From Bacteriovoracaceae bacterium (GTDB lineage: Bacteria > Bdellovibrionota > Bacteriovoracia > Bacteriovoracales > Bacteriovoracaceae): 64,000 nt of DNA. Location of the stretch: the NCBI GenBank assembly GCA_017858255.1, contig JAFMBV010000007.1, positions 1-64,000 on the forward strand. Reading direction: 5' to 3'. Position numbers and translations under genes: made by a program. Below are positions 19,384-50,350 of this stretch, piece after piece. The number at the start of each line of letters is the position of its first letter. Within the stretch, counting starts at the first letter, position 1. The notes under the pieces were generated by a model. It worked only from the letters and a program-made list of their open reading frames with translations, ran no database searches and was not told the origin of the DNA.

Positions 19384-19656
19384 ATGAGTGGTTATAAGCA
19401 AATGTCAGAATATCCTGTTGAACATTTTGTTCCCTTAGAAGGGGAAGGCAATGAATACTTATTGGGGCGGCTTACTCTTAATAAGGCGCATGACGGCTTA
19501 AGTATGGAAATTGATATTGTTCAAAAGGAAGGACGAAAAATCTATTATTCAGTTGACCGTCTTTATCGGATAGATTCAGATGATGAGGCCATTGACCTCG
19601 GTGTACAGAAACTTGCTGATTTCTTAAAAGGTTTATCTCAAAAACATTCAAAATAA
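19384..19656 (+). CDS. small hypothetical protein
   Basis: A 90-residue soluble protein of unknown function, probably a single alpha/beta domain (LLGRLTLNKA, LSMEIDIVQKEGRKIYYSVDR), ending in a basic helix. The start at 19384 is chosen because GAGAGG precedes it; the frame opens nine codons earlier. It is divergent from the YceI-like gene. I know no family for it. Confidence 0.6.
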   Translation: MSGYKQMSEYPVEHFVPLEGEGNEYLLGRLTLNKAHDGLSMEIDIVQKEGRKIYYSVDRLYRIDSDDEAIDLGVQKLADFLKGLSQKHSK

Positions 19657-19755
19657 TGACGTGATACGCCCGGAGTCAGTCGTTTATTTGACGGCGAGTG
19701 GTTTCGTGACTCATATACTTTCGGCTACTTAAGTGACTTTTTGTTAATCCAAAAG

Positions 19756-19772
19756 TTGGCACGGCTCTTGCT
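19756..19772 (+). promoter_or_regulatory. sigma-54 (-24/-12) promoter
   Basis: TTGGCACGGCTCTTGCT is a full match to the sigma-54 consensus TTGGCAC-N5-TTGCW, with the GG and GC dinucleotides 12 bases apart. The predicted transcription start is near 19783. No protein gene follows on this strand; instead a short structured RNA ends at a strong terminator about 90 bases on. Upstream, GAGTCA (19673-19678) and TGACTC (19707-19712) form an inverted repeat that could bind an enhancer-binding protein. Confidence 0.85.
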
Positions 19773-19782
19773 AATAGAATAC

Positions 19783-19875
19783 ATGTGTGTGTGTAGGAGC
19801 TACGAAAAAAGGATTTTTTCCAACTCCATTTAAATGTCTCTCGAAAAGCCCAGTTGGAAACAACTGGGCTTTTTG
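19783..19875 (+). ncRNA. sigma-54-driven small RNA with three GGA hairpins (candidate CsrA/RsmA antagonist)
   Basis: The transcript predicted between the sigma-54 promoter and the terminator is about 93 bases. It can fold into three stem-loops. The first (19793-19803) has GTAG/CTAC arms around GAG, so GGA lies at 19796-19798. The second (19804-19820) has a seven-pair GAAAAAA/TTTTTTC stem with a loop of exactly GGA (19811-19813). The third (19844-19873) is the terminator, with GGA at 19856-19858 at the loop. Repeated GGA in hairpin loops is the signature of CsrB/RsmY-type RNAs that sequester CsrA. A second fold is possible: 19817-19824 is fully complementary to 19853-19860. A 16-codon open frame begins at 19783, judged fortuitous. 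Function is inference. Confidence 0.65.
19844..19875. terminator. intrinsic terminator, bidirectional
   Basis: Thirteen-base perfect arms AAAAGCCCAGTTG and CAACTGGGCTTTT enclose a GAAA tetraloop, followed on the plus strand by a T run. It ends the small RNA on the plus strand. Its A-rich left flank also makes it usable on the minus strand for the gene at 19896-20342. Confidence 0.88.
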
Positions 19876-19895
19876 CATTTAAGCTAAGAAAAATT

Positions 19896-30300: not shown

Positions 30301-33300
30301 TCAATACATGCCTGATCTTCTCCACAAGCATCAAGTTTAGCGAGAAACTTATCTAAATCTTGAAAACATATTTCCTTTTCTGCGGCAGGTTTGGCGTCAC
30401 ATTTCGCAACAGCAGCAAGGTACTCTTCTTTTTCCTGACGAAGGTTATTCTTGCATACTTGGTCTGTACCACAGGCCTTTACTTTAGCGACATATTCGTT
30501 GAGATCATTAAGGCACTTACTTTTCTCTGCCTCAGGCTTAGCATTACAGGACGCAACTTGCGACTCATAGTCTGCCTTATCTCTTCTTAAATCAGCAATA
30601 CATTGCATGTCCTCACCGCAAGCTTCGTAGCTTGCCATATAATCAGAAAGATTGGTGTGGCACTTGTCTTTATCACTGCCTGCAGGCATTGCCTCACAGC
30701 GATTATGCTCTGTTAAGTACTGGTCTCGATCTTGTCTTAAGGAGGCCTTGCAAGATTCATTGTTGCCACAGGCATCGTAGCGAGTAATAAAACTATCAAG
30801 CCTTTGTTGACAGGACTGGGCCTCTGAAGTTGGACTAAGTGTTTTACAGCGTGCCTCTTCCGCTAAGTATTCATCACGGTCTCTTTTAAGGTTATTTTTA
30901 CAAGTAATATTCGCGCCACATGATTCGTAGGCCGTCACAAATTTATTTAAATTTGATAGACATGTTTCTTTTCCTGGAGATGCTTTGGCCTCACATAAGA
31001 CCTTTTGAGCTTGAAAGTCTTCTTTGTCTGCCATGAGCTGGTTTTTACAAGACTGGTCCGCTCCACAGGCATCAAAGGCCGCGACAAATTGGTCGAGTTG
31101 AGAAAAACAAGTACCTCTTTCTTGTGAGGGTTTTGATTCACAACTTGCGACTTCCGCTTCATAAAGCGAGCGACTCTCTTCTAATTGGGAGAGGCAAGTT
31201 TGGTTGCCGTTACATGCCTTCACCTTATTAACGTATTGATTAAGTGACTCCAAACACCTGCCTTGTTCTGATACTGGCTTTGATTCACAGCGGGCCACTT
31301 CCGCTTGGTATTCAGCCTGTTGCGTTTGAAGTTGGTCTTTACAGGCCTGATTTGAACCACAGGCTTCATACTCAGAAAGAAAAGAGTCAAGGTTGGTTAA
31401 ACAGGTATTCTTCTCTGCAGGAGGTAAGGCCTCACAACGTGTCCTTTCTGTTTCTAAGGCGTCTTTGTCTGCCATGAGCTTATCAATGCAGGCCTGATCT
31501 CCATTACAAGCATTTACGCTTGCAGTAAAATTTTCTAAACGAGAGAGACATGCTTGTCTCTCTGTTGGGTTTGAAATGGCCTCACAACGAGACATTTCTG
31601 CTGCATATGAAGCTTGTTTGTCTCTAAGTTTTCCTTCACAGCTAGTATCCCCGTTACAGGCCTTAAACTCTGTTAAAAATTGATTGAGATTATTGAGGCA
31701 GGTTGTCTTATTAGCACCAGAGAGTGCATTACAACGATTCTCTTCAGAACGAATAAGGTCACTGTCGGCCATGAGCTTATCGACACAAACCTGATCACTA
31801 CCACAATCTTCTATTCTGGCCGTAAAGTAGTCTAGGTTCTGTAAGCACTCTGTTTTTTCAGTTCCAATTTTTGTAAGGCATCTATTAAATTCTGCCTGGT
31901 ATTGAGTTCTTTGCGTGTTAAGTTTAGTCTCACAACTTTGATTACCATTACAGGCCTCATACTTTGAGACATAGTCATTTAAGCGCGTGAGACAACTGGT
32001 ACTTTCTGTGGAATTAGCAAGGCCCTGACAGCGAGACTTTTCAAAATTATATTGATCTCTTTTCGCAATAAGAGCATTTTCACAGGACACGCTTGAATTA
32101 CAGTCTTTGTACTTTTGGGTAAAACTATCGAGACGGCCTAAACAAGCTGCTTGATCTGCAGAGCTACTTATCGCCATACATTTGTTAAATTCAGTGCTGT
32201 ATTCGTCACGGTTTGAAACAAGCTTATCTTTACACGTTTGATTGCTACCGCAAGCAGTAAAGGCGGCTACATAATCATTAAGACGTGTAAGGCAGTCCGT
32301 TTTAGATTGGCCACTTAACGATTCACAATGGTTTAGCTCATTATTATATTCATCTCTTTCTGCTAATTTTTGACTCTTACAACCCTGATCTCCACCACAG
32401 GCGAGGTAACCATCTAGAAAACTCTCTAATCGGTTATTACAATCAATTTTCTCTTGTCCACTTCTGGCGTCACACTTATTTTTTTCACTTTGATAAAGGC
32501 TCTTGTCTGCCATGAGCTGGTCTTTACAGGCTTGAGTACTACAAGCATTAAAAGTATTAGTAAACTCAGTCAGACGATTAAGGCATAGAGATTTATTTGG
32601 TTCTGGCATGGCGATACATGCTGACTCTTCTTGCTCGTAAGCTGTTCTTTGATCAAGAAGGACTTGCTCACAAGTTTGATTGCCATTACAGGCCTCAATT
32701 TCTGAAATATATTTATTCAGATTGTTCTGACACTCTTGATTTTTAGGTGACGCGTATGACTCACATTTTGAAAGTTCATTTTTATATGCAATTCTTTGAG
32801 CATCAAGTTTTTCTTCACAAATACTGTCGCTAGAGCAGGCCTCAAAGCGAGTGACATATTTTTCAAGATTATTGAGACAATCACTTTTAAAAGGTTCACT
32901 TTTAGTATTACAGTTATTTTTTTCTGTTGAGTATAGATTTTGTTGTTGTTCTAACTTTAAGCGACATGTATTAGTTGTACAGGCCATATACCTATCGACA
33001 TATGTATTGACTCGATTTAAGCAGTTAACATCTCCATTACACTCACGCGATTGAGTGGTGTAATTTTGTAAGTTGCTATCGAGGTCGGATTTACATTTTT
33101 GACGGTCTTCAAAAACTGGGTTTTCATTACACTTAAGTGTTCCTCCAGTAAGCCAGCTTTGTTCTTTATCACCAAAGCAAAAATCATATGAACAGTTCCA
33201 AGTTCCGCTACAAGAACTGGACTCAGCATTAAATGGACTTGTGGCAGGATAATCACAAGCGGACCATGCACTGAGAGGTGCCAGGAAGATTACGAAGATC

Positions 33301-49477: not shown

Positions 49478-49511
49478 GCACCAAGGATGTGGCGCCAAGA
49501 AAACAAGGAGG
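49478..49511 (+). promoter_or_regulatory. two CsrA-type sites in the flagellin leader
   Basis: CAAGGATGT (49482-49490) matches the CsrA consensus core. It can form a hairpin with GC-A-CCA and TGG-C-GC arms (one mismatch) that presents AGGATG as a hexaloop. A second ACAAGGAGG (49503-49511) covers the ribosome binding site of the flagellin gene. A pair of sites with one on the Shine-Dalgarno is the arrangement known for repression of flagellin translation by CsrA in Bacillus subtilis. Confidence 0.6.
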
Positions 49512-49516
49512 ATCTA

Positions 49517-50350
49517 ATGGGTTTACGTATTAACACAAACGTAACGTCACTCTCTGCACAGAGAACACTCGGCGTTAACAACGATGCACAAGCTAAGTCT
49601 TTAGGTAAATTGTCATCAGGGACAAGAATTGTCCGATCTGCTGACGATGCTGCTGGATTTGCTATCAGTGAGAAGTTGAAAGCACAAATAAGAGGTCAGA
49701 ATCAAGCAGAAAGAAATGCGAATGATGGTATTTCAATGATTCAGACAGCTGAAGGTGGTCTCAGCGAAATTGGTAACATTCTCATTCGTATGCGCGAACT
49801 TGGTGTTCAGGCTTCCTCAGATACTGTAGGTAACCAAGAAAGAGCATTTACTGATCTTGAGTACCAAAACCTCAAGCAGGAAATTGAGCGTATCTCTCAG
49901 GTGACTGAGTTTAACGGAAAGAAATTGCTTGATGGATCTGGCGATACTTACGATTTTCAAATCGGTATCAACAATGATGACTTTCAAGATAGAATTAAAT
50001 TTAATACAGAAATGCTAAATAGTTCTTCTGCTAACCTCGGTGTTGAGTCTTTGGCAATTGGTACCAAAGAAGATGCACAAGGTACGCTTGCTTCTCTAGA
50101 TTCTGCTATCACACAGGTATCAGGTCAAAGAGCAGAGTTAGGAGCGAAGCAAAACAGACTATCTTCTACTGTACAAAACCTGCAATCAAGTTCTGAGAAC
50201 TTAAACGCTGCGAATTCACGTATCCGCGATACTGATTACGCTGCTGAAACAGCAATGAATGCTAGACTTAACATTCTTAATGCTGCTGGTACTTCAGTTC
50301 TTGCACAATCAAATGCTCAAGGTCAAAACGCTCTTAAGCTTATTGGTTAA
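49517..50350 (+). CDS. flagellin
   Basis: A 277-residue flagellin made only of the conserved terminal D0/D1 domains (GLRINTNVTSLSAQRTLG at the start; RDTDYAAETAMNARLNILNAAG towards the end), with a very short central part and no hypervariable D2/D3 region. The frame opens ten codons earlier, but the ATG at 49517 follows AAGGAGG at six bases and gives the standard N-terminus. It stands alone between a terminator and the charged-repeat operon; other flagellar genes are outside the window. Flagellum-based swimming would coexist with the gliding-type cluster that follows. Confidence 0.95.
   Translation: MGLRINTNVTSLSAQRTLGVNNDAQAKSLGKLSSGTRIVRSADDAAGFAISEKLKAQIRGQNQAERNANDGISMIQTAEGGLSEIGNILIRMRELGVQASSDTVGNQERAFTDLEYQNLKQEIERISQVTEFNGKKLLDGSGDTYDFQIGINNDDFQDRIKFNTEMLNSSSANLGVESLAIGTKEDAQGTLASLDSAITQVSGQRAELGAKQNRLSSTVQNLQSSSENLNAANSRIRDTDYAAETAMNARLNILNAAGTSVLAQSNAQGQNALKLIG

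Follow-up and report, generated by a model that had tools for sequence, protein, structure and literature searches.

A predicted sigma-54-dependent small RNA family of the Bacteriovoracales with a candidate antisense seed for a TonB uptake operon

The Qrr small RNAs of Vibrio are about 90-110 nt long, are transcribed from sigma-54 promoters with upstream enhancer sites (for LuxO), carry a conserved unpaired seed and end in an intrinsic terminator. In the Gammaproteobacteria, GlmY/GlmZ and CrcZ are also small RNAs under the control of sigma-54 and an enhancer-binding protein, with GlmY serving as a decoy for RapZ and CrcZ as a decoy for Hfq/Crc, and McaS-like dual small RNAs combine base-pairing, CsrA binding and a link to motility. 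Among predatory bacteria, Bdellovibrio bacteriovorus produces merRNA, an abundant small RNA that is tied to the attack phase and is a c-di-GMP riboswitch RNA (PMC3627812).

Here we describe a locus from a Bacteriovoracaceae bacterium (assembly GCA_017858255.1), located in the first 64,000 nucleotides of contig JAFMBV010000007.1 (hereafter the window), that specifies a predicted small RNA of about 91 nt on the + strand (about 19785-19875; covariance model score 98.9 bits). Like the Qrr RNAs, it combines a comparable size with a sigma-54 promoter, enhancer sites, an unpaired seed and a terminator. It differs from them, however, in being unrelated in sequence and present as a single copy, in coming from a phylum sample that lacks Hfq, in having enhancer sites of the FleQ rather than the LuxO type, and in its proposed target. 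With GlmY/GlmZ and CrcZ it shares control by sigma-54 and an enhancer-binding protein, but no match in sequence or structure; with the McaS-like RNAs it would share an antisense seed, a CsrA site and a link to motility, but it has again no related sequence. Finally, merRNA is likewise a small RNA, from a related predator, but the Rfam riboswitch families gave no match in the window.

A preliminary description of this DNA had proposed that a full sigma-54 consensus faces a region of about 93 bases that holds no protein gene and ends in a strong terminator. This outline was borne out. The promoter (TTGGCAC-N5-TTGCT, TTGGCACGGCTCTTGCT; 19756-19772, + strand) has zero mismatches to the -24/-12 consensus and is the only match in the window with fewer than 2 mismatches. 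Across the 4.08-Mb genome there were 10 perfect matches, compared with 0 for a reversed control pattern. The pattern TGG[C/T]A-N7-TGC was present in all 75 of the 75 intact homologous loci, among them 20/20 mostly divergent loci that had been chosen using an RNA model built without the promoter. The RNA-like stretch begins 12-14 bases 3' of the -12 element and closes with an intrinsic terminator, in an intergenic region (19657-19895) that has no protein gene between 19656 and 19896. We infer where the RNA starts from its distance to the promoter and from the GUGUG conserved at its 5' end, and where it stops from the terminator.

Upstream of the promoter, the GAGTCA/TGACTC inverted repeat highlighted in the preliminary description turned out not to be the conserved element; what is conserved instead is a pair of GTCA-N6-TGAC dyads. 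In the window, both dyads lie on the + strand with one mismatch each: a distal site (TTCAAAATAATGAC, 19647-19660, about -138 from the RNA start), which shares bases with the end of the ORF upstream, and a proximal site (GTCGTTTATTTGAC, 19679-19692, about -106). The dyad recurs in 46 of 69 independent upstream regions, where 0.2 would be expected, and across homologues it is usually tandem, with copies roughly 105 and 137 bp upstream of the RNA and 31-33 bp apart. When 59 genomes were searched for exact tandem dyads, the small RNA locus was recovered in six of them, together with one extra pair, near a contig start in genome G034. The dyad agrees with the FleQ consensus GTCaNTAAAtTGAC (PMC6120874, PMC10723142) in its half-sites and its 14-bp length, each window copy having one half-site mismatch; this consensus has itself been doubted for Pseudomonas fluorescens (PMC6120874). 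Taken together, the promoter and the upstream sites support the assignment of this locus as a putative sigma-54-dependent small RNA, and the conserved tandem dyads fit the earlier suggestion that control runs through an enhancer-binding regulator.

The genome's nine further perfect sigma-54 promoters all lack a tandem GTCA-N6-TGAC pair, and we therefore dismissed the idea that they mark co-regulated genes. Several are the promoters of genes for very short exported proteins (62-219 amino acids; L145, L146, L148; G000:C67, C169) and have no FleQ-type boxes.

Among the sigma-54 activators that were found in the genome and read, only one has the recognition helix RTTLxEKM. This helix is of the FleQ type (MNRTTLIEKMKKKG, compared with RRTTLVEKMRKYG in FleQ), and when its region was compared with the whole PDB, FleQ 8p53 matched best (E 1.4e-8). 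The protein is a REC-AAA+-HTH response regulator (gene at G000:C9), and its REC domain sets it apart from FleQ in architecture. Its gene heads a flagellar operon in which the following genes include, by sequence, flgB, flgC, fliE, fliF and fliG. The helix was found in 124/129 class genomes, and in several of those without the small RNA it is cut short or matches less well. Genomes without the small RNA nevertheless also keep the protein, which counts against its assignment as the activator. From helix similarity only, we infer that it is the putative activator. In this form the link to motility raised in the preliminary description gains substance, both from the FleQ-type box and from the position of the matching regulator at the head of flgB-flgC-fliE-fliF-fliG. 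A second, short enhancer-binding protein, whose AAA+ domain is divergent and which otherwise has only an HTH, is encoded in the flagellar operon immediately ahead of flgB (L172:11622-12608).

Relatives of the RNA were first found by BLAST with 151 bases, and a strict pattern search of the GTDB genome collection returned 58 copies, most of them under the titles Bacteriovoracaceae, Halobacteriovoraceae, Bacteriovorax or Halobacteriovorax, with no clear case from any other group. As that pattern itself demanded the promoter, GTGTGTG and TGTCTCT, which makes it circular as evidence for their conservation, invariance was judged also on loci recovered by BLAST and by a covariance model. The latter, built without the promoter, detected the RNA in 97/129 genomes and 33/48 genera of the class, nearly always as a single copy, and had no match outside the class in a 369-genome sample of the phylum. 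One genome, G078, holds two copies (G078:C1:419900 and G078:C5:41652; L107, L132). There was no Rfam match at gathering score, with the CsrB, RsmY and RsmZ families absent even at E 10, and literature searches on small RNAs of Bacteriovorax and Bacteriovoracaceae found nothing. The predicted RNA is thus a family of the mostly predatory order Bacteriovoracales that is previously undescribed, having no Rfam entry and no paper that we could find. A role in cis on neighbouring genes was dismissed after comparing the neighbourhoods of 75 loci, since the downstream arginase-family gene, kept in 54/75, is convergent, and since the upstream genes vary (no recurring one encoding an enhancer-binding protein).

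The region folds more stably than its shuffled counterparts (z -4.7; 0/200 shuffles as stable), into two predicted stem-loops rather than the three, each exposing a GGA, of the preliminary description. A 5' tail of the (GU)n type (GUGUGUGUGU, 19785-19794), with a predicted unpaired probability of 0.89, is followed by hairpin 1 (19796-19827), in which an outer stem (GGAG at 19796-19799 with CUCC at 19824-19827) and an inner stem (19804-19810 with 19814-19820) carry an apical GGA (19811-19813) within AAGGAU. Next comes a linker, UGUCUCUC (19835-19842; predicted unpaired probability 0.91-0.95), and then the strong intrinsic terminator of the predicted fold, a hairpin and U-run at 19842-19875. Across 70 distinct copies, variation is almost absent from the 5' tail (91-100% identity per column), from the loop A-GGA-(U)U and from the linker (U)GUCUCU(C), whose core GUCUCU reaches 99-100% per column; variants of the linker among loci found with the promoter-free model are ACGUCUCUC, AAGUCUCUC and GUUUCUC. 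Hairpin 1 shows covariation in its inner stem, with 97.1% of cells paired and 33 double changes. None of 500 shuffles was as good, every slid control was worse on pairing, and a count made without gaps, with the GGA as anchor, agreed. The terminator stem drifts freely.

The three GGA motifs fared unevenly. That at 19811-19813 is truly exposed in its loop and is 100% conserved in the 70 distinct homologues. That at 19796-19798 is paired in the outer stem of the predicted fold; its A is kept in 67% of the same homologues, and the outer-stem GGA is lost in 20/75. The third (19856-19858) straddles the terminator tetraloop, in columns where the commonest base is T, and 63/75 homologues have no GGA anywhere in this part; because terminator stem and loop drift freely between species, it is no conserved feature.

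These data bear on the proposal, made in the preliminary description, that the RNA is of the CsrB/RsmY/RsmZ kind and titrates CsrA through several GGA hairpins. The genome does encode CsrA, as that proposal supposed (PF02599, E 1.2e-25; G000:C110:2413-2568), in a flgK-flgL-csrA-fliW block where it lies beside fliW. The invariant AAGGAU loop is close to the known ANGGA(U) site and represents a plausible single CsrA site, if only a predicted one. The leaders of flagellin genes bear CAAGGAGGAU, also a plausible CsrA site, and Hfq (PF17209) is missing from 59/59 genomes of the phylum, in a search whose controls worked (5/14 control genomes positive). However, what the RNA has in common with CsrB, RsmY, RsmZ and RsmX is only a hairpin loop with GGA and the presence of csrA in the genome: it has one conserved GGA where they have several, its promoter is of the sigma-54/FleQ type and not under GacA (there was no match to a GacA/UvrY box near the promoter within 3 mismatches), and its GU tail and UGUCUCUC, which contain no GGA, are equally conserved. 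With only the GGA at 19811-19813 invariant and exposed, the second paired and often lost and the third absent in most homologues, and with no Rfam match, the three-GGA architecture was ruled out, and we consider it unlikely that sequestration of CsrA is what the RNA does. In the same connection, the csrA leader is GGA-rich (L173:2355-2412) and looks like a case of CsrA autoregulation, and of the roughly seven flagellin genes in the genome one lies in the window itself (49487-50350), with the leader ACAAGGAGGATCTAATG.

The linker could in principle be conserved for another reason, since the window copy, like many homologues, has an AUG there and reads on as AUG UCU CUC GAA AAG, which might be taken for the start of a short peptide or leader. 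In other homologues, however, this codon is replaced by ACG, AAG or similar. The third positions of the codons do not vary, the reading frame is lost after some five codons, and no ribosome site precedes the AUG. A short ORF was dismissed on these grounds, and we regard a coding function as extremely improbable. As a separate matter, the linker heptamer occurs together with its complement in an inverted repeat elsewhere in the window (AGAGAGACATGCTTGTCTCTCT, 31541-31562).

Turning to possible targets of the linker, we searched five congeneric genomes for GAGAGACA within 12 bases of an ATG. This gave 107 matches against 80 for a reversed control, so there is little excess genome-wide. Among these ATG-adjacent sites, the only gene to recur between genomes was that of an exported DUF3450 protein (G001, G004 and G006); its ortholog in the window's own genome (G000) bears the sites too, and the fifth congener, G005, has no such site at this gene. 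The DUF3450 gene heads an operon that reads, by Pfam, DUF3450-ExbB-ExbB-ExbD-TonB-TPR. In G000, GAGAGAC lies at -25, -11 and +8 of the first ATG (L306:2223), and G001 has it in nearly the same places; it is found at -9 of the DUF3450 start in G006, and upstream of, near and across the start in G004. It also occurs just upstream of the second gene of the operon (G000, G006) and near the TonB start (G000, G006, G004). A tandem GAGAGAC in G005 (L259) was set aside, as it lies inside a coding frame.

In about 475 nt of leader from the four congeners, GAGAGAC occurs 11 times and is the commonest heptamer, with about 0.03 copies expected from the regional rate; since a genome entered the set only if it had one site or more, some seven of the 11 can be counted as independent. 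Over the full 39 kb of operon regions there are 18 sense and 5 antisense copies (Markov mean 2.8), but several codon-driven heptamers are as enriched over this larger region, making the leader the telling part, and two of the sites, within exbD, are accounted for by conserved codons. Predicted duplexes between linker and leader reach -14.7 to -16.7 kcal/mol, compared with about -10 to -12 for shuffles, and beat 97-99% of these. The unpaired UGUCUCUC thus has the character of the seed of a trans-acting antisense small RNA, and its complementary sites are conserved in four congeners of one genus. In 800 kb of another genus the operon had no ortholog that we could find, and the only matches were distant ExbB/ExbD paralogs. 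The complement of the GU tail, ACACAC, has 0-3 copies in the target operon, with nothing consistent about them. The flagellin leaders examined contain no GAGAGAC, and flagellin mRNAs were ruled out as base-pairing targets on this basis.

A strong stem-loop lies between a beta-helix gene and the DUF3450-TonB operon (L306:2137-2173, and in the same place in L307, L308 and L309). In all four congeners its loop shows GUCUCUC, the same heptamer as the small RNA linker, and it is possibly a cis partner of the GAGAGAC sites or a 3'-UTR mimic of the small RNA. This hairpin allows a different reading of the leader, in which GAGAGAC is a protein site or the cis partner of the upstream stem-loop and the match to the small RNA is secondary. 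However, GAGAGAC sites are also found at internal genes far from the promoter (ExbB, TonB), which favours RNA pairing over a promoter-binding protein. The loop heptamer GUCUCUC also hardly varies, throughout the family, in an RNA that is not linked to the operon, and cis loop and small RNA could share the sites. We therefore judge it improbable that the leader motif exists chiefly for a protein or a cis partner.

Because its (GU)n tail and UGUCUCUC are invariant and single-stranded, and because GAGAGAC is repeated at the starts of the TonB operon, the RNA appears to act mainly by base-pairing there rather than by soaking up CsrA. On balance we think it somewhat more likely than not, arguing from sequence comparison, that this is a trans-acting antisense small RNA, independent of Hfq and driven by a flagellar regulator and sigma-54, that blocks translation of the TonB operon. 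In such a scheme, the enhancer-binding protein with the FleQ-like helix (G000:C9) would bind the tandem GTCA-N6-TGAC dyads and activate sigma-54 RNA polymerase, so that the RNA would be made while the flagellar programme is on. It would fold into the covarying AAGGAU hairpin, the unpaired linker UGUCUCUC and the terminator, and the linker would pair with GAGAGAC(A) at the first start codon, and near internal start codons, of DUF3450-ExbB-ExbB-ExbD-TonB. Such pairing could block ribosome binding and turn translation of the uptake operon off; repression is the likelier sign of regulation, as the sites overlap start codons. In Bdellovibrio, the swimming attack phase and the growth phase run different programmes (PMC3627812), and we speculate that TonB-dependent uptake may be held down during swimming in a predator cycle of this kind. 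If so, the RNA would join a sigma-54 flagellar regulator to the post-transcriptional control of nutrient uptake in organisms free of Hfq, and this link would therefore provide a direct entry both to the switch between attack and growth and to the action of antisense small RNAs without Hfq.

The absence of Hfq from the sampled phylum genomes means that regulation by small RNAs must here do without it. The AAGGAU hairpin is most simply read as a docking site for a protein, for which CsrA, given the lack of Hfq, would be the obvious candidate. The RNA might be dual, with the hairpin binding CsrA as a stabiliser or matchmaker in place of Hfq and UGUCUCUC serving as the antisense seed. In favour of this are the unchanging GGA loop with its covarying stem, the unpaired seed, which is invariant too and has sites to match it, and the lack of Hfq, but the hairpin has no tie to the target sites, and such a dual function seems doubtful to us. 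We are similarly hesitant about its fullest form, in which a single small RNA, made through sigma-54 by the flagellar regulator, would combine a CsrA-docking hairpin with a multi-site seed, and CsrA, as matchmaker, would help to keep TonB uptake off in the attack phase until it is released in prey.
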